Part shown: positions 5,164 through 49,128 of the stretch, one piece after another | How positions within the stretch are numbered: position 1 is the stretch's first letter | Layout: every line of letters begins with the position of its first letter | Origin: a virus | Direction: 5' to 3' (one strand) | DNA: 64,000 nt | Virus record (IMG/VR): IMGVR_UViG_3300034110_001237 | Coordinates: 62,001 to 126,000 of that record | Position numbers and translations under genes: made by a program | The notes under the pieces: generated by a model | What the model was told of the DNA's origin: nothing | The model's input: only the letters and a program-made list of their open reading frames with translations | The model's database searches: none

Positions 5164-5997
5164 TTAACACTCAATCATCTCAATCAACTTTAAATAATCC
5201 ATAAAGGCTACTTTGTTTGGCCCAGTTAAATTGTCATAGAAAATTTTGTTTACAATTTTAAACCAATTTGTATTTTCAAAATCAATACTGGCATAATCCA
5301 AGAAACTTGTGTCCACATCTTCTTTGATCGAGTTCACATGATTAACAAAGCTTACCAGCAATAGTTCGCTTTGCGGTGTTCCAAAATCGTCAACATAATA
5401 ATTACTACTACGACCTTCTAAAACTTTTTTTGTCTCAAAACTCTTTTTACATAGTTTATGTTCTTTATCAAAAAAGTAACACATAGAGTTTGAATAATAG
5501 GTTTTAGCTTTAATTTTATCAATCAGGTCTGGTGTTTTAAAACAGTTCTTTTTGACTAATACATAAATCGAACCACCAAATTCCATGTCTAGATAGAAGT
5601 TTAATGTCATAGATGGGTCATTAAAATGATCGATGTTTAAATGTTTGATAAGTCCTGTTTCAGAAGTTCCACCTTCATAATTAGAACTGTAATGTGTTTG
5701 TCTGCCATTTTCGTCATAATGAACATAAATTGGCATCTCAAATCGACAATCAAATAGTTCATACAAGTTGAAGGTAAATGTGATGGTAATACAATCTTTT
5801 GTTTTTTCATTAGCGTAAAATGAGGTTTCATTTTCTTCCAAGTGAAGATGCTCTTGAATCAATTCCATTGTTATATCTGGATTATTATTGATTGCATTTA
5901 ATTTCTCACACATTAACGCATGCATAATTTGGAAGTGCCTAGGTTTCAGCATTTCCTTCGTAGATAATTCTTTATAATGTGGAAAAAATAACTTCAT
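5164..5997 (-). CDS. Tandem paralog 3 of 3, soluble, M-x-x-I signature family
   Basis: 277 aa. It is the last of three tandem - strand paralogs. Shared features are an N-terminal FPxYxEL motif (residues 5-11), an INNN turn near residue 37, a central HFND segment and a C-terminal LTG-x-x-K/R-x-AFxDYxK helix. This copy ends LKLIEMIEC instead of the usual Ile. AAAGGA precedes the ATG. No catalytic motif seen. Confidence 0.85.
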   Translation of the reverse strand: MKLFFPHYKELSTKEMLKPRHFQIMHALMCEKLNAINNNPDITMELIQEHLHLEENETSFYANEKTKDCITITFTFNLYELFDCRFEMPIYVHYDENGRQTHYSSNYEGGTSETGLIKHLNIDHFNDPSMTLNFYLDMEFGGSIYVLVKKNCFKTPDLIDKIKAKTYYSNSMCYFFDKEHKLCKKSFETKKVLEGRSSNYYVDDFGTPQSELLLVSFVNHVNSIKEDVDTSFLDYASIDFENTNWFKIVNKIFYDNLTGPNKVAFMDYLKLIEMIEC

Positions 5998-6016
5998 TTT
6001 AGTGTCCTTTTATTTC

Positions 6017-6811
6017 TTAAATTGTCATCATATCGATCACTTTCATATAATCTAAGAAAGCATTGCGTTTATCACCTGTTAAGGCATTTAAAAACATGTT
6101 ATGGACTTTTTTAAACCATTCTGGTTTATTGAAGTCTATTCTCGCATAATTAACAAACGTTGTGTCAACAGTTTCTTTTTGATTGATTATATGATTTAAA
6201 AACATTAAAAACAAATGTTCTGTTTCCAATTTTTCAAAACCTTCAAATGAATAGCTTGTTTCAGATTCTGTATCCGCATCAATAGTTTTAAATTTTCTAT
6301 ATTTTATTTTATGATGTTTATCAAAAAAATATCTTAATGTTACTGTTTTTGAATGAGACATCGGTGTTTTTATGTAATCATGTTTTACAATTTCATAACC
6401 TTCTTCTAATTCTCTTTTATTTAAATGAAACTCAAGATAAGAATGTCCATCATTAAAATGATCAAGATTTAACATCTGCATTATTTCTGAACGTTTTATT
6501 GAGCCAACATAACGTGACTCCCATGTTGTATACTTGCCGCTTTCATCGAATGAAATAGTTATTGGTATTCTAAATTTAAAATCAAAAAAAACAACATCGA
6601 AATTAATGATTACAAAATCTTTTATTGGATAAAAATGAATTTTATGGCCTACTATTTCTAAGTTCTCGACAATCAAACTTTCGTTAAATTCTAAGTTATT
6701 ATTAATTTCATTTAATTTTTCACATATTAATGTATGCACAATTTTAGAATACCTAGGGTTCAGCGACTCTTCACTGGTTAATTCTTTGTAGTCTGGAAAA
6801 ATTAAATTCAT
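6017..6811 (-). CDS. Tandem paralog 2 of 3, soluble, M-x-x-I signature family
   Basis: 264 aa. It starts with the FPDYKEL motif, has EINNN near residue 38, HFNDGHSYLEF in the middle and ends DYMKVIDMMTI. It lies 19 bases from the downstream copy and 16 bases from the upstream copy, so the three form one operon. Function unknown. Confidence 0.85.
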   Translation of the reverse strand: MNLIFPDYKELTSEESLNPRYSKIVHTLICEKLNEINNNLEFNESLIVENLEIVGHKIHFYPIKDFVIINFDVVFFDFKFRIPITISFDESGKYTTWESRYVGSIKRSEIMQMLNLDHFNDGHSYLEFHLNKRELEEGYEIVKHDYIKTPMSHSKTVTLRYFFDKHHKIKYRKFKTIDADTESETSYSFEGFEKLETEHLFLMFLNHIINQKETVDTTFVNYARIDFNKPEWFKKVHNMFLNALTGDKRNAFLDYMKVIDMMTI

Positions 6812-6827
6812 TTTATTTAGTATCCTT

Positions 6828-7628
6828 TTAAATAGTTAACATATCAATCATTTTCATGTAATCTAAGAAAGCAACACGTTTATCACCTGTTAATAATCTA
6901 AAAAATGTTGAATGTGCTTTTTTTGCCCAATCAGCGTCATCAAAATTGAATGTATTATAATTAATCAAATCAATATCAGTATGTTCTTGTTCATTTGTGA
7001 TATGTCGTAAAAATTTAAGGAATAAAATCTCTGATGCTACTTTCTCGAAGCCATCAATCGAATAACTTGATGTTCCAGCACCGTTAACGCTATAGTTCAC
7101 TGTTTCAAAACTTTTGCAGTGAACAGTGTGATTTCTATTGAAGTAATATTTCAATTTTAATCTTTTCTTCGGATAGTCTGGTAACTTAACATCGTTTAAT
7201 TTGATAATTGTATACACTTCATTGAGGTCATCATCTTTTAATGAAAATTCAAGATGTGAATGGGTATCATTGAAATGATTTATATTCAATATATTCATTA
7301 TCTCTGGATATCTTGAATCCCCTTCATAATAGGAGAGCCATTGAGTATATTGACCTATATTGTTAAAATAGGCATTCACTGCCAAACAAAAGGTAAAATC
7401 GAAAAATTTAACATATAAATTGAAGGTTACATATTCTTTTGATTTATAGAAATTTGTTACTGTGTTAATAATTTTAACATTGTCCTTGATGGTTTCTTTG
7501 TTTAATTCATGATTATTATTCATGATAGTAAACTTATCACATAACATTGATTGTAAAATGTCTTTTTGTATGTCCGTTAAATTAGGAGATTTCTCTAATT
7601 CATAGTAGTTTGGAAATTTTAATGACAT
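6828..7628 (-). CDS. Tandem paralog 1 of 3, soluble, M-x-x-I signature family
   Basis: 266 aa. First gene of the three-gene - strand operon. It has FPNYYEL, MNNN and HFNDTHSHLEF motifs and ends DYMKMIDMLTI. Two adjacent ATG codons (7629-7631 and 7626-7628 in complement) are possible; the second has better spacing to GAGG. Confidence 0.82.
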   Translation of the reverse strand: MSLKFPNYYELEKSPNLTDIQKDILQSMLCDKFTIMNNNHELNKETIKDNVKIINTVTNFYKSKEYVTFNLYVKFFDFTFCLAVNAYFNNIGQYTQWLSYYEGDSRYPEIMNILNINHFNDTHSHLEFSLKDDDLNEVYTIIKLNDVKLPDYPKKRLKLKYYFNRNHTVHCKSFETVNYSVNGAGTSSYSIDGFEKVASEILFLKFLRHITNEQEHTDIDLINYNTFNFDDADWAKKAHSTFFRLLTGDKRVAFLDYMKMIDMLTI

Positions 7629-7631
7629 CAT

Positions 7632-12222: not shown

Positions 12223-13308
12223 ATGTCTACGTTTAAAGCAACCGTTCTTTCAGTCATTGTTGAGCCACACCCTAACGCTGATGCGATTGAACTGGCTCGC
12301 GTTGGTGATTTCTTTTCGATTATCCAAAAAGGATATTTGAAAACTGGCGATTTGGCTGTCTATATCCCAGAAGGTGCCCTTGTCCCTGAATTCATTCAGG
12401 AAGAAGTGGGGTGCCTCGGTAAATTGGCAGGTTCCAAGAAAAATCGTTTGAAACCGTCTATGCTTCGTGGCGTGCTTAGCCAAGGTCTTTGCTTTAAGGC
12501 CCGTGAAGGTTGGGAAATTGGTGATGATAAAGCCGAAGAATTGGGTATCGTGAAATATGAGGCTCCTATTCCAGCTTCTATGAATGGTGAAATTTCTAAC
12601 GTAGGCATTGAAAACACTTTCCACTTTGACATTGAAAACGTCAAACGCTACCCTGATGTGTTGGTTGAGGGTGAAGAAGTGTCGATGACTGAAAAACTGC
12701 ACGGTACTTTTACTATTGCAGGTAGTGTGTATGGTAAAGCTCCAATTCCACACACTGTTAATGGTCGTTCTTTTGTGAGTAGCAAAGGATTCTTTAACAA
12801 AGGTTTGGTGCTTCGTGATAACGAACAAAATGCTCATAACATTTACATTCGTGTAGCGAAGAAGTTTAATCTTTATGACATTACGGCTATCCTTTCAGAC
12901 CGTTACAAAACTAACGCTTACATTTCGGGTGAAACGTTTGGTGCTGTTCAAGATTTGACTTACGGTCTTGAAGCGGGTGTGTTCGATTTCCGTGTGTTCA
13001 ATGTGTTCCTTGGTAATCGTAGCGAAGCAAGTGGTGTGTTCCCAGTGAACGATGATGTATTAGAAGAAATTCTTGCTGAGTTCGACTTGAAGCGTGTTCC
13101 AGTGCTTTACAAAGGGCCATACAGTAAAGAAGTGATGTTGAAATATACGGATGGATTTGAAACCTATTCAGGCAAAGAAACACACATCCGTGAAGGTTTG
13201 GTTATTGAACCACTTGTTCAGCGTCGTGACCCAACCATTGGGCGTGTTGTCTTGAAAAGTGTTTCAACTGCTTACTTGTCGCGTAAAGGTGGCACTGAGC
13301 TTAACTAA
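12223..13308 (+). CDS. RNA ligase, DRB0094 (Rnl5) family
   Basis: 361 aa, the usual length for this family. The N-terminal 110 residues form the extra OB-like domain, followed by the nucleotidyltransferase core: motif I EKLHGT with adenylated Lys158, motif Ia around GRSFVSSKG (181-189), motif III YISGETFG (233-240), IIIa FDFRVFNVF (254-262), IV EGLVIEP (324-330) and V VVLKSVS (342-348). It would seal RNA nicks with ATP. It has its own promoter (TATAAT at about 12183) and AAGAGG. All key residues look intact. A second, unrelated RNA ligase lies at 25.9 kb. Confidence 0.93.
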   Translation: MSTFKATVLSVIVEPHPNADAIELARVGDFFSIIQKGYLKTGDLAVYIPEGALVPEFIQEEVGCLGKLAGSKKNRLKPSMLRGVLSQGLCFKAREGWEIGDDKAEELGIVKYEAPIPASMNGEISNVGIENTFHFDIENVKRYPDVLVEGEEVSMTEKLHGTFTIAGSVYGKAPIPHTVNGRSFVSSKGFFNKGLVLRDNEQNAHNIYIRVAKKFNLYDITAILSDRYKTNAYISGETFGAVQDLTYGLEAGVFDFRVFNVFLGNRSEASGVFPVNDDVLEEILAEFDLKRVPVLYKGPYSKEVMLKYTDGFETYSGKETHIREGLVIEPLVQRRDPTIGRVVLKSVSTAYLSRKGGTELN

Positions 13309-25725: not shown

Positions 25726-25895
25726 AAATTAACCCTCAAATAATCGATTATTTTACTTTATGGATGATAAAAAGTCAATGTTTTATGTTATTTTCATTTT
25801 ATTTCTTTGTTTTTAACTTTTTCATGATTAAAACGTTGCTTTATAGGCTCTATTTTGGTACAATATCGGAAATGAAAACAACGGAGATACACCAC

Positions 25896-27050
25896 ATGTC
25901 AATTTTTCCAACTATTCGCCATATTGACGACATCTTGCCAGCTTTGGTTGGTAAAGATTACATCGGTATCAACAAGCAATCTAACGGTTCGACTGTTATT
26001 TGCTATAACATCAGCAATGCTGAAGGTTTTGCTACGTCTTTTGAAAAAGAGTGTCGTGGTATTACTTTCAACCGCGATGGTAAAATTGTCTCCCGTCCTT
26101 TGCATAAGTTCTTTAACTTGGCAGAGCGTGAAGAAGTCTTGCCACAAAACTTGAATTGGGATGATGTTGTTGCTGTCTTCGATAAAATGGATGGTTCTAT
26201 GATTACGGGTGGTGTATTCCACGGTGAAGTCTTCGTAAAATCTAAAAAATCCTTTGAATCGGATGTGGCTGTCTCTGCTTTGGCTTATGTGAAAGCAAAC
26301 CAGAAATATTACGATTTCATCAAGCATTGTGCTAATGTAGATTTGACACCAGTTTTTGAATATACGTCGCCAAATAACCGGATCGTATTGCGTTACGATG
26401 AAGAAAAAATGACTGTGTTGCATGTTCGTCATAACATCACTGGTTTATACCATACTCCAGATGAAGTGGCAGCATTGGCGAAGTCTTTTGACATTCCAGT
26501 GAACGCACCATTGTTTGGTAAAGGCTTTGATTTGAAAGCATTGTTGGAATCTTTGAATACTGTTGAAGGAATCGAAGGTTATGTCATTCAGTTTAAAAAC
26601 GGCGATATGGTGAAAGTCAAAACTCGCTGGTATGTAAACTTGCACCATGCTGTTACTTTCGTGCGTATCCGTGATATTGCTCGTTTGGTATTGTCGGAAA
26701 AAATTGACGACTACATTGCATTTGTTGCTTTGAATGCACCAGAAGCCGATTTGACTCAAATCCATCATATCAACGACACTATTAAAGGTGAAATTGAAGG
26801 AATCAAGAAAGAAGTTGATACAATTTTGGCTCAGCATCAAGGTGCAGATTTCAAAACGTTGGCAACTACTTACTTGGGGCATCCATACTTCTCTTTCATC
26901 ATGACCACTGCTCGTGGTAAAGAAGTGGATTATTTGGACTACTACGAACGTAACCGTTTGAAAGAAGTTTGGTCTTTGGAGCAAGTGGATTTGGGTGACT
27001 TCACTGGCACCGACGAATCAGACGAAGAAGTTCAAGTAGACGAAGAGTGA
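25896..27050 (+). CDS. RNA ligase, T4 Rnl1 (RnlA) family
   Basis: 384 aa, close to the 374 aa of T4 Rnl1. Motif I FDKMDGSM with adenylated Lys97; the conserved ECRGITF (52-58) and KFFNLAE (71-77) of this family precede it. Motif III PVFEYTSPNNRIVL (152-165), IV EGIEGYVI (224-231), V VKVKTRWY (239-246). The last 20 residues are strongly acidic. It would join broken tRNA ends, as T4 Rnl1 does after anticodon cleavage. No polynucleotide kinase-phosphatase partner is seen in the window. The start was placed after GGAG; a longer frame upstream overlaps the promoter (ACAATAT about 25860). Confidence 0.93.
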   Translation: MSIFPTIRHIDDILPALVGKDYIGINKQSNGSTVICYNISNAEGFATSFEKECRGITFNRDGKIVSRPLHKFFNLAEREEVLPQNLNWDDVVAVFDKMDGSMITGGVFHGEVFVKSKKSFESDVAVSALAYVKANQKYYDFIKHCANVDLTPVFEYTSPNNRIVLRYDEEKMTVLHVRHNITGLYHTPDEVAALAKSFDIPVNAPLFGKGFDLKALLESLNTVEGIEGYVIQFKNGDMVKVKTRWYVNLHHAVTFVRIRDIARLVLSEKIDDYIAFVALNAPEADLTQIHHINDTIKGEIEGIKKEVDTILAQHQGADFKTLATTYLGHPYFSFIMTTARGKEVDYLDYYERNRLKEVWSLEQVDLGDFTGTDESDEEVQVDEE

Positions 27051-32840: not shown

Positions 32841-33104
32841 ATGAACGATATCACCATTACACATTTGCCTATGCAACAAGTCAGCAGTGTCGCCTACAAA
32901 GGAAAATTCATTGGTCTGGCCGAGGATGGTGATTCCGCCAAAATGCAGCGGTTGGTTAATGAAGCGATGGAGCTTCATGATAAAGCTGAAAAAGAAAACT
33001 GGATTAAAGCAATGGTCAAAGTCTCTCGACTTGTATATAATCTTGACAATGATGAGGTTTCGGAATCTCGTATGATCGAAATTATTAAGGAGCAGTTCAA
33101 ATGA
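32841..33104 (+). CDS. Small protein, paralog of the previous gene
   Basis: 87 aa; same length and fold pattern as its upstream neighbour. GAGG precedes the ATG. The stop overlaps the next start by 4 bases, so it is coupled to the acetyltransferase gene. Confidence 0.78.
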   Translation: MNDITITHLPMQQVSSVAYKGKFIGLAEDGDSAKMQRLVNEAMELHDKAEKENWIKAMVKVSRLVYNLDNDEVSESRMIEIIKEQFK

Positions 33105-33574
33105 AATATCTTTCTTTGTCCAAAGACATTGGAGCGGTAGCGGTTGCTCTTGGTGTTTCAAGTTATAAAATCAAAGATACCATTTTTGATGTATTCCAAT
33201 CTATGGAGATTAAATACTCAAATTTTTCTGATTGGTATGACAAGATTTTTGTCGAAGTATTGATGGATAATGTGCGTCGGGATATTGTTTTGGCTGTTGA
33301 TGGCACTACCATTGCGGCTATCTTGATTTTGAAAGATATGGATGGTGAGAAGAAAGTATGCAATATTGTGGTACTTCCAGCTTACCGTAAACAAGGTATT
33401 GCCAACGAATTGTTTGAAATTGCATTTGAATATCTTGGCACTCGTAAACCTATGCTTTCAATGTCACAAGACTTGGTACCTAGCTTTTCTGGCATTATTC
33501 GTAAATTTAAATTTAAGCTTACTAATATTGATCAAGCTTACAATACAGATAAAGCAGAATTTTATTATAATTGA
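33101..33574 (+). CDS. GNAT-family N-acetyltransferase
   Basis: 157 aa. Motif A VVLPAYRKQGIANELFEIAF (residues 90-109, R96-K-Q-G-I-A101) after the CNIV strand. Substrate unknown. Third GNAT of the window, coupled to the small gene upstream. Confidence 0.83.
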   Translation: MKYLSLSKDIGAVAVALGVSSYKIKDTIFDVFQSMEIKYSNFSDWYDKIFVEVLMDNVRRDIVLAVDGTTIAAILILKDMDGEKKVCNIVVLPAYRKQGIANELFEIAFEYLGTRKPMLSMSQDLVPSFSGIIRKFKFKLTNIDQAYNTDKAEFYYN

Positions 33575-33622
33575 AAAAAAGTATTGACTTATAGACTTAA
33601 TTCTCTTATAATTGTCAGCATT

Positions 33623-33706
33623 GCGGAAGTGATGAAATGGTAGACGTTCTGGTCTTAGAAGCCAGTGCCGAGAGGCGTGTGGGTTCGAGTCCCACCTTCC
33701 GCACCA
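33623..33706 (+). tRNA. tRNA-Leu (anticodon TAG)
   Basis: Complete tRNA: acceptor GCGGAAG/CTTCCGC, anticodon arm CTGGT-CTTAGAA-GCCAG with anticodon TAG at 33656-33658, long variable arm GCCGAGAGGC, T-arm GTGGG-TTCGAGT-CCCAC and encoded CCA. It reads CUN codons. It has its own TATAAT-type promoter about 33606 and is followed by a terminator. Confidence 0.97.
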
Positions 33707-33715
33707 TTTTAATAC

Positions 33716-33742
33716 AGGCTCACATTTGTGGGTCTTTTTTTT
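33716..33742 (+). terminator. Intrinsic terminator
   Basis: AGGCTCACA/TGTGGGTCT stem and eight T after tRNA-Leu. Confidence 0.85.
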
Positions 33743-33779: not shown

Positions 33780-33989
33780 GTGAAAGAAAATCTTGATGTC
33801 TCCAAATCAAAAAGAAATTTATTCATTGTTGTGGGTCTTGTTTCTTTTTTGGCTCTCTTTCTTGGCATGGAGTTATCCCGATTTTTTCATAACTATTTTG
33901 ATCGTCAGTCTTCTATTCACAACACAACCTCTGATAAAACCCAAGGCATGGTTAAATCATTCTTTGCTCAACAAGGAAGCAGACAATGA
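33780..33989 (+). CDS. Single-pass membrane protein, GTG start
   Basis: 69 aa. One membrane segment at about residues 13-33. The GTG has GGGAG upstream; the overlapping ATG is followed at once by a stop and cannot be used. The stop overlaps the topoisomerase-like gene by 4 bases, so the two are coupled. Confidence 0.75.
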   Translation: MKENLDVSKSKRNLFIVVGLVSFLALFLGMELSRFFHNYFDRQSSIHNTTSDKTQGMVKSFFAQQGSRQ

Positions 33990-34474
33990 CTCTTCCTGTC
34001 TATACTGACTTTATCGTTAAATACACACAAGAACAACCCCTTGAACGTAGTTGGATGCCTCGTTTACACAATAACAGTCATTATTATTGTGATAAAGAAT
34101 CTCGATTTGTCGATGTCTCTGAAATGTTGGAAAGTTTGTATTCAGAAAAATTAATTAGCTATCCACGAACAGATGCAAATGTTATCTCTGTTGATTTGTT
34201 TGATGAACGCTTTGATATTCTGGATGCCATTACTGAATCCAATTACCATAACAAGGACATTGTTAATCTCTTGATACAAATGGACATCAATTACATGAAA
34301 CCTAACTGTTGGGTAGAGCAATTGAAATTCTCTCATAATGCGATCCACCCAGAAGCCACTGTTAAAGATATGCGTTGTTATTTTTTACCAAGGACTCGGC
34401 CTTACGATGTGGTTAGGGAAGTTATCTATACCGATATTTGTAAATCCTACATTAAACTGTTCATTCCAGATTGA
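33986..34474 (+). CDS. Stand-alone type IA topoisomerase-like catalytic fragment
   Basis: 162 aa. LESLYSEKLISYPRTDA (residues 48-64) matches the type IA active-site segment, with Tyr59 as the nucleophile and Arg61 next to it. FSHNAIHPEATV (116-127) matches the H-x-A-I-x-P-T motif that follows in these enzymes, and DVVREVIYTDICKSYIKLF resembles the helix after it. The TOPRIM domain, zinc fingers and most of the gate are absent: intact enzymes have 600 or more residues. It could be a decoy, a toroid-less partner that needs a host subunit, or an evolutionary remnant under selection. No frameshift is seen; the frame is open and has normal signals. Confidence 0.75.
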   Translation: MTLPVYTDFIVKYTQEQPLERSWMPRLHNNSHYYCDKESRFVDVSEMLESLYSEKLISYPRTDANVISVDLFDERFDILDAITESNYHNKDIVNLLIQMDINYMKPNCWVEQLKFSHNAIHPEATVKDMRCYFLPRTRPYDVVREVIYTDICKSYIKLFIPD

Positions 34475-34523
34475 GGCTTTTCTTTGTTTGTGGTATAATT
34501 GTCGAAATCTTAGAGGAATTACC

Positions 34524-35102
34524 ATGACCAGTCTTGATCTTATTTTGAAAAATATGATTCTGTCTGCACCGCATATTTACCCAACGACTTGGCAATGTTA
34601 TACATCTATTTTCCTTGATATGAACTCAGGTTTCACTTTTTCTAATTCAGAAGTTGGCTGTCCTTTTGAAGTCAATGAACTTCCTGTTATCAATGAACAA
34701 CATCTTGATGCCTACAAAGCTTTAGCTGTCAATCCAAAAGGACAGCTTGACTACGAAATGAAAGTATTTATGACCAATTTTATCAAAGAAAATATTGATA
34801 TGATTGTTAAGACGAAATGCGTCTATGTAGAATACCTTAAGCCTTCTCGTGACGATTTAGCTCTGTTGAATGATCGGTCGCCTCTTTGGTTGATTGATGA
34901 CACCTATCCTGCTGATGTAATTAACGCTGCTCTTTGTGTGTTGAAAGAAATGAAACATGTATTATGGAATTTTCATGGCATTCATCATTCACCTTCTCGA
35001 CCGATTGATAGTGCAGCTTGGAAAGAAATATGTTATCATACAGCTTATGTTAAAGTGTCTGACCGACTTGAATATCTTCAACCACAAAGGACTCTACCTT
35101 AA
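34524..35102 (+). CDS. Hypothetical protein
   Basis: 192 aa soluble protein. The ATG at 34524 follows an extended -10 (TGGTATAAT 34491-34499) and AGAGG. The stop shares a base with the next start (TAATG). Not recognised. Confidence 0.8.
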   Translation: MTSLDLILKNMILSAPHIYPTTWQCYTSIFLDMNSGFTFSNSEVGCPFEVNELPVINEQHLDAYKALAVNPKGQLDYEMKVFMTNFIKENIDMIVKTKCVYVEYLKPSRDDLALLNDRSPLWLIDDTYPADVINAALCVLKEMKHVLWNFHGIHHSPSRPIDSAAWKEICYHTAYVKVSDRLEYLQPQRTLP

Positions 35103-35686
35103 TGAAAGCGATTACAGTGATTGAAGCAATTATTGCCCAATATAACCTTTCTTTCTCTACTCGTTGGCGAGTATTGGAGCACCTTTTTCTGGTGAATGGT
35201 AATGGTTGCTATTGGTTGAAAGATGGCTCTCTTGATTCGGACATCTCTAATTACAAAGAAGGCGTCATGGGTGAAAACAAAATGATTCAGTCGTTGAATG
35301 AATCCTTGGAACTGGTCAAAGACTATAACATCCCAGCCTTTACTGATGCTTATCATCTGCAAATTAAGTTTGAACAAGGCTTTGATCAATTTAAAGAGAA
35401 AAACTTCAAAGCAATTGCAGCAAACCAATTCTTTTTCTTTGACAGTCAAATCCCAAGGTTTAAAGATCTGTCACGGGCCACCTTCAATCATCTGTTCTAT
35501 GAAGTGCCTGATAATGTCCAACCTGACTGGAAAGCATTGATTGTTGAAACTGCTTGTATTGTCCAGAAGGGTATTAAAGACACCTACTTTGTTTCAGGTG
35601 CTCTTACGTCTCCAGATTCATGGTCTAATCAAGAAGCTTTTAGTGTTTATATGGCGGCAGAAAACCAGCTAAAATCTTTAAAATGA
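35102..35686 (+). CDS. Hypothetical protein
   Basis: 194 aa soluble protein coupled to the previous gene. No signal or membrane segment; family unknown. Confidence 0.8.
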   Translation: MKAITVIEAIIAQYNLSFSTRWRVLEHLFLVNGNGCYWLKDGSLDSDISNYKEGVMGENKMIQSLNESLELVKDYNIPAFTDAYHLQIKFEQGFDQFKEKNFKAIAANQFFFFDSQIPRFKDLSRATFNHLFYEVPDNVQPDWKALIVETACIVQKGIKDTYFVSGALTSPDSWSNQEAFSVYMAAENQLKSLK

Positions 35687-36673: not shown

Positions 36674-36728
36674 AACCTTCTCAATTTCTGTTATACTTAG
36701 GCATTCTTCATGATAAAGGATGTCTATT

Positions 36729-37406
36729 ATGACTTCGCTTGATACAGCATCATTGTTTTCTGTCGCAAGGCTTAAAACTCGGTTAAATCGAGAAAACCTT
36801 TCAGAATTCATTCCATCTTCGTTCGTTTTTCAATCAGTCTCCATCATTGTCATGGTTCTTGCTTTTATCTATGGTATGAGCATTGATAGTCGTAAAATCA
36901 TAGTATTCAGTGCATTCAATGGGATTGCTTCCATTCTATTGTTCGGTTTGGTGTTATGGATGACTAAAATTAAAACGTTGCCTGATCGCTATTACAGTTG
37001 GTCTACTGCCATCAATTATGTGGGAGCAGTGTTTTCCATTCCTTATCTGATTTTTATTGACTATGAAGCTGTATTGGCATTTTCGACGATCTTCTTTTTC
37101 ATCAACATTTTCAACCTTTGTGTTCTTCTTCATATTTTGAATTTTCGGTCTAATCATCACCACAGTTGGAATGCTCTTCGTCAAGTTACCGAATCGAAGA
37201 AAGGCTTCAAATTCAAGCTGACAATGGGGCTACGCCTTCATATGATTATGCCTATTGGTTTGATCAGTATTCATTTTGAAAGTATCACTATCAATCATGT
37301 CGAACATGATTTGTACTATCTAACTAAACATTTCAAAGAATATGGACTAGACTTGTCTTCGGTTACTGATGATGATTTAAAACTTTGGGAAATGATTAAC
37401 TATTGA
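36729..37406 (+). CDS. Four-helix membrane protein with M-x-x-I tail, copy 1 of 3
   Basis: 225 aa. Membrane segments about 31-50, 56-80, 92-108 and 113-136, then a cytosolic module of about 85 residues ending LKLWEMINY. The same layout is found in the next two genes. AAAGGAT before the ATG. Confidence 0.82.
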   Translation: MTSLDTASLFSVARLKTRLNRENLSEFIPSSFVFQSVSIIVMVLAFIYGMSIDSRKIIVFSAFNGIASILLFGLVLWMTKIKTLPDRYYSWSTAINYVGAVFSIPYLIFIDYEAVLAFSTIFFFINIFNLCVLLHILNFRSNHHHSWNALRQVTESKKGFKFKLTMGLRLHMIMPIGLISIHFESITINHVEHDLYYLTKHFKEYGLDLSSVTDDDLKLWEMINY

Positions 37407-37423
37407 TTAAAATCAGGTGGTTT

Positions 37424-38092
37424 ATGACTAATATTTTATTTTTTACACAACGTATGCTGGTCGCTTACACCTTTGGTTTTATGGGCATTCTGTGCTCTAT
37501 TCTTATCGCGGCTTTACAGATAACAAAGATATCTGCTAGCGGTGATGTGCTATGGCTTTTATTGGCGTGTGGTTTTGCAGTGGCTGTATTTGTGGTTTAT
37601 CTGGATAGCCGTCCAGTTCTTGACAATATTAATTACTATTCAAAATATGCCATGTTTAATTATGTGTTTAGTTTATATGTTGTGGCTCATTCAGTTATCA
37701 TGATTGGATCAAGTCAATTGTTTATACTGTTACCTGCCATGTTGCTAAGTGTTTTCAATATTTTCTTGTTTTCTAAAATCCATCATGGTCTTTCTGAACA
37801 CTTGATTATTCCAAGACTTCAACAATTATATAAGTTATTGCCAGAAATGCATAATGTTAATATTGATTTTGACTATACTTTTTTACGAAAAACAGATCTT
37901 TTGATTTTTGAAAGAAGATTCTTTAAAATCATGACAACAATGGGTGAATTGCTTTTTGACGGCCATTATCTTTACTTGAACGGCTATAAGTATGAAGTCG
38001 ATGCTTTTGTGGATGGATTTAAAGCTTGCTCTATCGACATTAACAGTTCAACACCAGAAGATGCTATGGTTATGCAAATGTATTGTGTATAA
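37424..38092 (+). CDS. Four-helix membrane protein with M-x-x-I-like tail, copy 2 of 3
   Basis: 222 aa. Same topology as its neighbours. The cytosolic module includes FDGHYLYLNGYKYEVDAF and ends AMVMQMYCV (Val last). AGGTGG before the ATG. Confidence 0.82.
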   Translation: MTNILFFTQRMLVAYTFGFMGILCSILIAALQITKISASGDVLWLLLACGFAVAVFVVYLDSRPVLDNINYYSKYAMFNYVFSLYVVAHSVIMIGSSQLFILLPAMLLSVFNIFLFSKIHHGLSEHLIIPRLQQLYKLLPEMHNVNIDFDYTFLRKTDLLIFERRFFKIMTTMGELLFDGHYLYLNGYKYEVDAFVDGFKACSIDINSSTPEDAMVMQMYCV

Positions 38093-38182
38093 TTGTAGCT
38101 TAATAAGTCATTTTTAGCTGTCTTATTTCTTTTCAATAGTGTATAATCAACATATATTTGAATCAACGCCATGAGGTGTTTT

Positions 38183-38875
38183 ATGAAAGCATTACAGTAT
38201 TTGAAACAAATCACACCCTTGTTTATTATGCGGCAATACAACTTGTCCGCATTTTTGGTTTTGTTATGTTCATGTTTTGGCATGTATCTCACCATGTCAC
38301 ATATGGAACTTGGTGGTAATAAGTTCTTTATCATTGTTGGAGGTGTAACCTTAGTGACACTGGGGTTCGCTTTTGTCCTTCATGCGATGAATTACTTTGC
38401 TATGCCGCCTGACCGCTTCTATTCAGATTGGTCTTGGATGAATTATATTTTGGCTGGTGTTGTGTTGTTGTCAACTCTCACCATTCCAGAAGAAAGCCTT
38501 GTTAACTATTTGATTATTTTTTCTATTGCTATTCTCAACTTGTGTCTGTTTATGTCAAGCATGCAATTTAGAAGCACATATTCAACTGAAATCACTAAAC
38601 TGCGAAAATTGTTTCCTGATGAAAAACAGTTCATGTTTGATTTTGACTTTGATTTTTCACGAGATTTTAAGGGCGTTGTCAATAAGAAAAAAGTAAACTT
38701 TGGTATTTGTCTCTTAACAAATTCAGGTAAAATTGTTTTGGCGGGTGATAATTTTTATTTTGATGACAAACCTTATTCCGCTGATAAACTGGCAAAGGAT
38801 CTTAAAGAATGTGAATTGAGTTTTAACAAGGCCAGTAAAGATGATTTGAAAGTTGTTGAAATGGCAACCTATTAA
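38183..38875 (+). CDS. Four-helix membrane protein with M-x-x-I tail, copy 3 of 3
   Basis: 230 aa. Same topology. The cytosolic module LAGDNFYFDDKPYSADKLAKDLKEC parallels copy 2 and ends LKVVEMATY. Own TATAAT about 38145-38150; AGGTG before the ATG. Confidence 0.82.
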   Translation: MKALQYLKQITPLFIMRQYNLSAFLVLLCSCFGMYLTMSHMELGGNKFFIIVGGVTLVTLGFAFVLHAMNYFAMPPDRFYSDWSWMNYILAGVVLLSTLTIPEESLVNYLIIFSIAILNLCLFMSSMQFRSTYSTEITKLRKLFPDEKQFMFDFDFDFSRDFKGVVNKKKVNFGICLLTNSGKIVLAGDNFYFDDKPYSADKLAKDLKECELSFNKASKDDLKVVEMATY

Positions 38876-44989: not shown

Positions 44990-46009
44990 ATGACTTTCGA
45001 ACGCGACCTTGATCAATTTTACACCAACAGTGACATCGCTCTTAAATGCTATGACTTACTGCAAGGTGTACTGGCACAAAACAATATCAAACCTACCATA
45101 TGGTTAGAACCATCAGCCGGTTCAGGGGCGTTCTTTTCTATTGTGTCTGGTAGTAAGCTAGGTATTGATATTGATCCTAAAATTGATAAAGTGGTCAAAG
45201 CAGACTTTTTGGAATACCCTTTGAAAGATGAAGGTTATATCACTATTGGTAATCCCCCTTTTGGCAAGAATTCCAGTTTAGCCATCAAGTTTTTTAACAA
45301 ATGTGCAGAAGTCTCCAAAGTGGTCGCCTTTATTGTGCCGAAGACCTTTAAGAAAGACAGTGTGCAAAAGAAGCTGAATAACCATATGCACCTTGCTTTT
45401 GAATGGGATGTTCCCAGCGACTCGTTCAACATAAAAAAAGAAATTGTGGACGTGCCTTGTGTCTTTCAAGTTTGGATTAAACAAGACATCGTTCGTCAAA
45501 ACACTAACAAAAGCTCTCTGGTAGAAGATTTTATCTTCACTAATAGAACCACGGCGAACATCGCTTTTCAACGAGTGGGTGTAAGGGCTGGAACGATTAA
45601 AGGGTGTGCAGCATTCCCTGAAATTGCTGATGCGTCACATTTGTTTATTAATACCTTACAACCTGATGTCGTGAAGATTTTGAAAGTTATTGACTGGTCA
45701 GCGATTAAATTTAATACTGCAGGAAATCCAAGCATTTCAAAACGCGAATTGATTAGCGAATACACTCGATACAAAGCGAACCTTGTTGGTATTATTGATG
45801 ACTATCTGTTGTTTAATTTTGATGACGTTATCTCGATTGTGTTCTTGGTGAATGGTAATGTGTTCAACATAAAAGTTGAAGAAGGTAATCTTGTGTTCCA
45901 TGATGCTATTTTTAAAATTCAAGTGGGTAATGTTGACTTTAATTTGGTGAAAGCTGCCTATCTTGATTTCAAAAAAACATTGAATGAAAACCTCACTAAA
46001 AAAAGTTAA
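44990..46009 (+). CDS. DNA N6-adenine-type methyltransferase
   Basis: 339 aa. DQFYT near the N-terminus (8-12), motif I LEPSAGSGAFF (39-49) and motif IV GNPPFG (87-92) define an N6-adenine methyltransferase. No specificity domain is recognised and no restriction gene is nearby, so it is probably a solitary enzyme protecting or marking DNA. tRNA-Cys follows. Confidence 0.87.
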   Translation: MTFERDLDQFYTNSDIALKCYDLLQGVLAQNNIKPTIWLEPSAGSGAFFSIVSGSKLGIDIDPKIDKVVKADFLEYPLKDEGYITIGNPPFGKNSSLAIKFFNKCAEVSKVVAFIVPKTFKKDSVQKKLNNHMHLAFEWDVPSDSFNIKKEIVDVPCVFQVWIKQDIVRQNTNKSSLVEDFIFTNRTTANIAFQRVGVRAGTIKGCAAFPEIADASHLFINTLQPDVVKILKVIDWSAIKFNTAGNPSISKRELISEYTRYKANLVGIIDDYLLFNFDDVISIVFLVNGNVFNIKVEEGNLVFHDAIFKIQVGNVDFNLVKAAYLDFKKTLNENLTKKS

Positions 46010-47304: not shown

Positions 47305-49128
47305 TTACTGTCTACATATTCTATACATTTCTTCCGAAGATCCTACTTCATCTATTATAGCAGAACCTACATAAGTGCTTCTTGTATAGGTATATCCACC
47401 GGCAGCTACAGAAGCTGCGTTCGATCTTAATGTAGCTACAGTTACTCCACCATATCTCCAAGTTTGATATCGGCTTGAACCATTATATATTACTCCATTT
47501 GATGAGCTATATGCTGGACAAATAATACTGCTTGTTGTGGTTACTGATACAGATTTTACTGGACTATATCTTGTAACTCCATTTAAAGATTTCTTAGCAC
47601 TTGCATAATATGTAGTGGTTGTTACAGCAGATGATGCGGTTGATGGTAAGTTTGATTCTGCTGTTCCTGCACTATTCATTCCCTGTAACGTAGCTCCAGT
47701 GCTATATCCAGATCCAGAAAACGTAATTGCAGTGGATTGCACAACCGATGTGCTTACAGCTCCATTTACAGTAAACGTTGTAAATGTTGGGTTGCTTTCA
47801 ACAACAACAGTTTTAGTTGATTCAGTTTCGACATTGGCTTCATTTATAGCTATTACGGTGTAAACATATGTGCCTGCTGCTGTTGGTGTTATTGCTGTTG
47901 ATGTCAAAACACCTAAATCAACATTATTCGTAGAAATACCTGAATTAGCATTATTTGATTTTATCTTATAGCTTGTAGCACCGCTTGATGAGAATGATAA
48001 TGTGAATGGTGCATTTGCAAACACTGTAGATGGGGCTGTAATTGAAGGTGAAGTTGCGGGCTGTATCACATTGACTGTAATTTTTTCTTGTATGGATTTT
48101 CCAGCTCCATTTTTGTTTATATATACATAATCTTTCGAACCTGTTAATGGTGCTACTAATGTTTTACTTTGACCAGTTACATTTACATTATCTAGTAACT
48201 GTTCTTCAAAACCACTTCCAACCCAATTAAAATTAAGGTTGCTGTTTGGCCCTACTTTAATAGTAGTTGGTACACCATTTACAGTAAATGAACTAATTAT
48301 TGGCTCTGGGTACACTGTTATACTTTTCTTTTTATTAATTTTAGTCCCGCTAAAATTTGTCGATTCCAATGTATAGTCAAAATTTCCGACTGTTGTTGTT
48401 AAAATTGATTTTGTGCCTGATGGCAAGTTTACTTGTGAACCATCAAAAGTTAACAATTCAGATCCTTCAACATTCCAATTGAAAATAGCGGTATCACCAA
48501 CAGTTAATTTTTCTTTATCCACATTGAAAGAATTTATTATGGAGTCAGGAACAACTTCAATTGATAATGATTTTGATAAATCTGATATTCCAGTGTAACC
48601 TTTTGCTGTTAATGTATATGTTGTAGTTGATTGTGGATGAACAGTTGTATTGCTATTCAATGACACATTACCAATTCCATTATTAATGCTTACAGCATTT
48701 GAATTGAGCACATTCCAGTTTAATTTAGCTGATTGACCCATACCGATTCTTTGAATATCGCTTGTAAAAGTAATTTCTTGTTCAGGTTGAATGACATTCA
48801 ATGTGAGTTTTTCTTGTCTATTATTTTTACCATTACTTATTGTAATTAAATATTCTGTTGTTTCGAGAGGGGCTACATCTGCAAGTCCTTTTTTTGAGTT
48901 ATAAGAACCAATATTTTCTATGTTAATGTTATTAGCATATTTATAATCCCAAACAATACTGGTTTCTTCACCTCTTTTTATTATTGGCTTTTTTAGCTTT
49001 ATTTCTCCGTTAACTTCGCTATCTTTTATAATTATTTTGTTACCATCCAATGGAACATAAACATTATAGTCTGCAAAACTGTTTCCGCTTAATAAAGCAA
49101 TAATTATTAGATATTTATTTTTATTCAT
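47305..49128 (-). CDS. Large exported Ig-repeat protein of the ADY family
   Basis: 607 aa, the largest protein in the window. Signal peptide of 19 residues cleaved before DYNVYVPLDG. Then about six repeats of 80-90 residues, each opening with a strand like INSFxVxxxxLxVGxxxxFNWNV (about 47, 118, 198, 277, 360 and 445), the pattern of bacterial Ig-like domains. The last 75 residues form a Cys-bounded domain (IICPAY, YRICRQ). Probable surface or periplasmic binding protein. No strong ribosome site is seen. Confidence 0.85.
   Translation of the reverse strand: MNKNKYLIIIALLSGNSFADYNVYVPLDGNKIIIKDSEVNGEIKLKKPIIKRGEETSIVWDYKYANNINIENIGSYNSKKGLADVAPLETTEYLITISNGKNNRQEKLTLNVIQPEQEITFTSDIQRIGMGQSAKLNWNVLNSNAVSINNGIGNVSLNSNTTVHPQSTTTYTLTAKGYTGISDLSKSLSIEVVPDSIINSFNVDKEKLTVGDTAIFNWNVEGSELLTFDGSQVNLPSGTKSILTTTVGNFDYTLESTNFSGTKINKKKSITVYPEPIISSFTVNGVPTTIKVGPNSNLNFNWVGSGFEEQLLDNVNVTGQSKTLVAPLTGSKDYVYINKNGAGKSIQEKITVNVIQPATSPSITAPSTVFANAPFTLSFSSSGATSYKIKSNNANSGISTNNVDLGVLTSTAITPTAAGTYVYTVIAINEANVETESTKTVVVESNPTFTTFTVNGAVSTSVVQSTAITFSGSGYSTGATLQGMNSAGTAESNLPSTASSAVTTTTYYASAKKSLNGVTRYSPVKSVSVTTTSSIICPAYSSSNGVIYNGSSRYQTWRYGGVTVATLRSNAASVAAGGYTYTRSTYVGSAIIDEVGSSEEMYRICRQ

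Follow-up and report, generated by a model that had tools for sequence, protein, structure and literature searches.

The window analysed here is a stretch of 64,000 nucleotides, positions 62001-126000 of an IMG/VR record of 161,697 bases. It contains a gene that raises the question of what a virus might do with one isolated domain of a topoisomerase. An intact ORF of 162 aa is found at 33986..34474 on the plus strand, and an earlier note on this DNA had described it as an orphan, miniature type IA topoisomerase domain. The coordinates and the length given there were exact, and both motifs named, ISYPRTD and HNAIHPEAT, are present. On the basis of the ORF itself, Pfam, NCBIfam, an AF2 model and homologues, the gene was annotated as a stand-alone domain III of topoisomerase III.

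The sole significant family match of the protein was PF01131 (Topoisom_bac; 35.1 bits, E 9.7e-9), confined to domain III of type IA topoisomerases and covering profile positions 146-249 of 411. Domains II and IV, which belong to a complete type IA enzyme, are thus absent from the 162-aa protein. The same segment was matched by the NCBIfam models for topoisomerase 3 (E 3.6e-8) and topB (E 6.8e-7), and the top PDB sequence match was E. coli topoisomerase III (E 0.017). Models of defence systems gave no match to the gene. For comparison, E. coli TopB and TopA were gathered together with 49 viral loci that encode type IA topoisomerase sequence, and domain III slices were aligned with the orphan proteins, which showed about 22-27% identity to TopB domain III and an acidic net charge of -4 to -7. 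In the ML tree the orphans fell in the proteobacterial topoisomerase III part, apart from topoisomerase I, on a branch of 3.13 changes per site; given this length and 152 usable columns, the placement is of limited precision. Residues 1-43 (33986..34114, plus strand) form an N-terminal segment that is specific to the orphans according to the alignment and the AF2 model. In the alignment it stands in place of the LQxEA stretch linking domain III to domain II.

An AF2 model computed from a 40-row alignment reached a pLDDT of 83.3 and a pTM of 0.81, and the stretch around residues 20-40 was modelled with low confidence. Since viral topoisomerase domains were among the aligned rows, the agreement in fold is not independent evidence; with two orphan sequences only, the pLDDT was 28.9. 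The structural comparison with E. coli topoisomerases that had been proposed earlier came out in favour of domain III as the predicted fold. Foldseek and VIA-align ranked E. coli topoisomerase III first (2O19; Z 17.1, 2.2 A, 129 residues), model residues 14-162 superposing on TopB chain 287-417, and other type IA enzymes gave Z values of at most 13. A BFVD fold search yielded only one weak match, to a giant-virus topoisomerase. The model indicates compatibility with the domain III fold, not independent proof of it. Because topoisomerase domains were part of the AF2 input, the independent evidence for domain III is the sequence statistics. The best NCBIfam models, the tree position and the structural Z of 17.1 against 13 or less favour topoisomerase III over topoisomerase I. 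At the sequence level, the identity of the product as domain III of topoisomerase III, nearest to the proteobacterial enzymes, is well supported.

The catalytic residues were located by alignment. The codons of Tyr59-Pro60-Arg61 lie at 34160..34168 and that of His117 at 34334..34336, all on the plus strand. Tyr59 and Arg61 correspond to Tyr328 and Arg330 of E. coli TopB (Tyr319 and Arg321 of TopA), and His117 corresponds to His381 of TopB (His365 of TopA). The active-site tyrosine, the arginine at +2 and the catalytic histidine that characterise type IA enzymes are therefore all present in the orphans, and the three positions are invariant across all orphans and 41 full-length enzymes. Five columns were invariant in those 41 enzymes; four of them (L51, Y59, R61 and H117) are retained by the orphans, the lost one being TopB Gln317, replaced by Glu or Asn. 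Residues that mark topoisomerase III are also kept (Lys55, Trp109, Tyr148, Tyr155, Phe159 and Pro161). Lys153, invariant in the orphans, aligns with TopB Arg408, a residue of the domain II-III latch (PMC12288529). The counterpart of TopB Arg304 differs between alignments, and Asp63 is replaced by Asn in one orphan copy (L013). Overall, the protein resembles TopB domain III (residues about 287-417) in its fold, in Tyr328/Arg330/His381, in Trp373 and in the C-terminal pattern Y-x-x-I...Y-x-x-x-F-x-P. It differs from TopB in lacking TOPRIM, domain II, domain IV and the C-terminal tail, in the loss of Gln317 and in having its own N-terminal segment.

The domain III gene was found in five IMG/VR records, corresponding to four distinct sequences with identities down to 51%. 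Besides the record of the window, scans with the protein and its neighbours identified four carriers: 3300031134_000610 (89%) and, at about 51%, 3300034157_000065, 3300035210_000189 and 3300034196_000117, of which the latter two are identical in this gene. All orphan copies encode 162-167 aa, with start and stop conserved. The dN/dS ratio was 0.10 between the window and L002 and 0.30 between L012 and L013; a ratio for the 69-aa gene (window against L002) was left out, its alignment being off by one codon. The stand-alone form of the gene is stable and under purifying selection. In the loci examined the gene order is identical (69-aa TM protein, domain III, 192 aa, 194 aa, 163 aa), with a GNAT gene upstream.

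Scans for more orphans returned the same phage group only, with none in genome_contigs. By tblastn, a single weak match was obtained in phages, to a full-length topoisomerase; in plasmids, the matches listed were topB/TraE genes except for a few unannotated ones, one of which is a Pediococcus fragment of a topoisomerase broken by stops. Neither a 484-kb uncultured phage that has an RNA ligase in common with the record nor a Vibrio phage that has the 194-aa neighbour in common matched the orphan or PF01131. A family of 156-aa proteins of unknown function, phrog_15293, weakly matches 33986-34474 near the active-site motif (E 0.034) and may likewise be a family of lone domain III proteins. Limited literature searches brought up no description of natural stand-alone domain III proteins as a family, and we know of none. 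The passages on topoisomerases retrieved from a jumbo-phage survey deal with type II and tyrosine-recombinase-type enzymes and name no isolated type IA domain (PMC7824862).

The claim that the gene carries no TOPRIM or other domains was borne out. PF01751 had no match in the gene or in any of the five records, and all 14 control genomes were positive; the domain III gene accounted for the single PF01131 match in each record, and GyrB (PF00204) gave no match in the records. A split TOPRIM gene nearby, which the earlier note had named as the sign of a sequencing frameshift, was sought in the five records and none was found. The records measure 161.7, 179.4, 192.8, 152.4 and 63.9 kb. Since the DnaG-type TOPRIM is missing as well, all five are probably genome fragments, and the absence of TOPRIM applies to the records, not necessarily to the phage. 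The same reading holds for the complementary topoisomerase chain, of which none was found in these five probable fragments.

The layout of the locus was examined on the plus strand. Upstream of the gene lie a conserved GNAT acetyltransferase (33101..33574, family match) and a tRNA-Leu (33623..33706, tRNA call). A sequence scan placed a sigma-70-like promoter, TTGACT-17-TATAAT (11/12), upstream of the tRNA at 33584..33612, in a region where the count of promoter-like sites is no higher than in shuffles. A terminator-like hairpin with a T-run (33716..33735) separates the tRNA from the ORF of a 69-aa protein with a GTG start and one hydrophobic stretch (33780..33989). The coupling of the domain III gene to this small membrane protein, claimed earlier, was confirmed: the two genes are translationally coupled through a start/stop overlap, ATGA or, in L002, TAATG, which is kept in all copies, as is the 69-aa one-helix protein. 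A second sigma-70-like element found by scanning, TTGAGG-17-TATAAT with TG, lies over the domain III stop codon at 34471..34499, and in the form TTGAGN-17-TATAAT it is kept in all four sequences (window, L002, L012 and L013). Because this promoter-like element overlaps the stop and the layout is the same in L002, L012 and L013, the domain III gene appears to be the last in its own transcription unit. Downstream follow two conserved neighbours of unknown function, identified by homologues: a 192-aa protein (34524..35102) and a 194-aa protein (phrog_14279, 35102..35686).

The gene lies beside the tRNA amid small accessory ORFs, away from replication genes. Its neighbours in the record include relatives of virion structural proteins, RNA ligases, an adenine-methyltransferase-like protein and TrpRS, a gene content that fits a piece of a large phage genome. 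Two different RNA ligases are present, a PHA02142-type and a T4 Rnl1-type (12223-13308 and 25764-27050). The product of 44990-46009 is a relative of phage DNA N6-adenine methyltransferases (Cronobacter phage GAP32, 38%), and 47305-49128 (phrog_2155) and L007:15528-16691 encode paralogous relatives of virion structural proteins. The TrpRS gene (L007:16864-17859, record 142864-143859) shares 68% identity with a gene of a record deposited under the name of an Acinetobacter phage. Since sucD and a mismatch-repair gene are found there too, that record looks chromosomal and is probably misfiled, and the match serves as a host hint only. Several families of paralogues were also noted. Three tandem membrane proteins (228, 229 and 234 aa) are encoded at 36720-38875, and four paralogues of unknown function, three of them in tandem on the minus strand, at 5164-7631 and L004:7418-8311. 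Seven tandem paralogues of about 254-289 aa lie at L008:3161-8627 (record 149161-154627), where YYLICRS-like peptides near several starts suggest a repeated intergenic element.

Domain III of type IA enzymes holds the nucleophile, the transition-state arginine and the proton-relay histidine, and domain I holds the TOPRIM glutamate and the metal ligands (PMC7587558). The lone protein has Tyr, Arg and His, with the glutamate and the metal ligands on the other half, and would thus be unable to complete the cycle by itself. The earlier note had reached the same view, which stands in essence. Its reason, a need for TOPRIM metal chemistry, was imprecise, since the divalent metal is required for religation only and it is the TOPRIM glutamate that is required for DNA cleavage (PMC7587558). 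The retention of all three catalytic residues suggests that the lone domain III meets the other half of an active site. It is quite possible, if short of probable, that its target is a type IA topoisomerase on which it acts in trans, the host topoisomerase III being the likeliest.

Several observations support action in trans. The homology is confined to domain III, and the structural match to TopB 287-417. Four of the five invariant columns have been kept despite a branch of 3.13 changes per site, together with the topoisomerase III marks W109, Y148/Y155/F159 and a lysine, Lys153, at the position of the latch residue Arg408. The dN/dS values of 0.10 and 0.30 and the identical gene order in five records point in the same direction, and precedents exist in a phage modulator, T4 gp55.2 (PMC4396842), and in two-chain type IA enzymes (PMC4200833, PMC6878951). 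On the other side, the incomplete phage genome leaves room for a phage-encoded partner. The N-terminal segment, which would face domain II, shows no conservation with full-length enzymes, the Arg304 equivalence depends on the alignment, and Asp63 is Asn in L013. A free domain would also have to overcome the concentration advantage of the intramolecular domain III.

The nearest candidate partner in the infected cell would be the host topoisomerase III or I. The free domain III may compete for, or swap into, the gate and active site of that enzyme, docking where its own domain III closes on domains I, II and IV, especially with the gate open. Such a hybrid site could leave the enzyme blocked, the phage domain being a dominant-negative competitor, or its cleavage trapped or altered, the domain being a poison or modulator. 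Host topoisomerase activity would in this way be tuned during infection. Because the catalytic residues are kept, a hybrid active site is favoured over passive competition. The coupled 69-aa membrane protein might tether or regulate domain III, which is the weakest step. We hold only tentatively the specific picture of a detached phage domain that inserts in the gate of host topoisomerase III (or I), forms a hybrid active site and blocks, poisons or re-tunes the enzyme. The suggestion in the earlier note that the orphan poisons, mimics or complements the host enzyme is plausible.

The conservation data bear on the idea that the gene is a decaying remnant, a frameshift or an assembly chimera of a full topoisomerase gene. 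Only a single domain is left, and single-domain topoisomerase pseudogenes do occur, as seen in the Pediococcus plasmid fragment with its stops. However, length and synteny are constant in five records, start and stop are conserved, no topoisomerase sequence flanks the gene on either side, and the dN/dS values are 0.10 and 0.30. Frameshift, pseudogene and chimera were ruled out on conservation, synteny and these ratios, and the probability left to a remnant is negligible. A toxin-like or anti-host protein that nicks DNA by itself is very unlikely. The catalytic tyrosine and arginine are there and type IA cleavage has no need of metal, but the TOPRIM glutamate, needed for cleavage in full-length enzymes, is missing (PMC7587558).

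More weight attaches to a split phage topoisomerase, in which the domain III gene encodes one subunit and a chain with TOPRIM and domains II and IV is encoded where the genome has not been sequenced. The conserved Tyr/Arg/His and the natural occurrence of two-chain type IA enzymes agree with it, and the lack of any TOPRIM in the records, that of a DnaG-type primase included, suggests that the replication region is missing. Nevertheless, this arrangement is unlikely: five records are without TOPRIM and without a second PF01131 remnant, and the gene lies among small accessory ORFs beside a tRNA, not among replication genes. No natural split confined to the removal of one internal domain is known to us. 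Slightly less improbable is a repurposed domain that has kept the fold without catalysis and binds single-stranded DNA/RNA or a protein, perhaps at the membrane with its 69-aa partner. The very long branch, the loss of Gln317, the change of Asp63 to Asn in one copy, the acidic net charge of -4 to -7 and the conserved coupling to a TM protein would all fit. Against it stands the catalytic trio, exactly kept in all copies, and the acidic charge itself does not speak for autonomous binding of nucleic acids.

Action in trans can be compared with known systems. The topoisomerase III of Nanoarchaeum equitans is a two-chain type IA enzyme (PMC4200833), and split reverse gyrases are found in Nanoarchaeum and Methanopyrus (PMC6878951). 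The second chain of those enzymes is known; the search in the five records gave none, and the orphan corresponds to just one internal domain. T4 gp55.2 is a proposed modulator of host type IA topoisomerase that inhibits topoisomerase I and raises phage fitness (PMC4396842). It has been described as a DNA-binding ORFan product, not as a topoisomerase domain, and the likeness drawn here is one of function. The small E. coli protein TopAI (YjhX; 85 aa) inhibits TopA by binding to its N-terminal part (PMC4666372). It is not derived from a topoisomerase domain and has no reported homology to other toxins. A domain III piece has been produced and crystallised without TOPRIM in the 30-kDa laboratory fragment of E. 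coli topoisomerase I (1CYY, 1CY9), which we take to include domain II as well.

Topoisomerases are usually whole machines, and a lone gate domain that is conserved, under selection and unchanged in its catalytic residues suggests that phages may give the host enzyme a spare active-site domain. Such a handing-over is a possible means of phage control over host DNA topology. The protein is small and expressible, it comes with clear predictions, and it would show whether type IA enzymes can re-assemble in trans. If it is an inhibitor, the domain I/III interface would be a natural target site.
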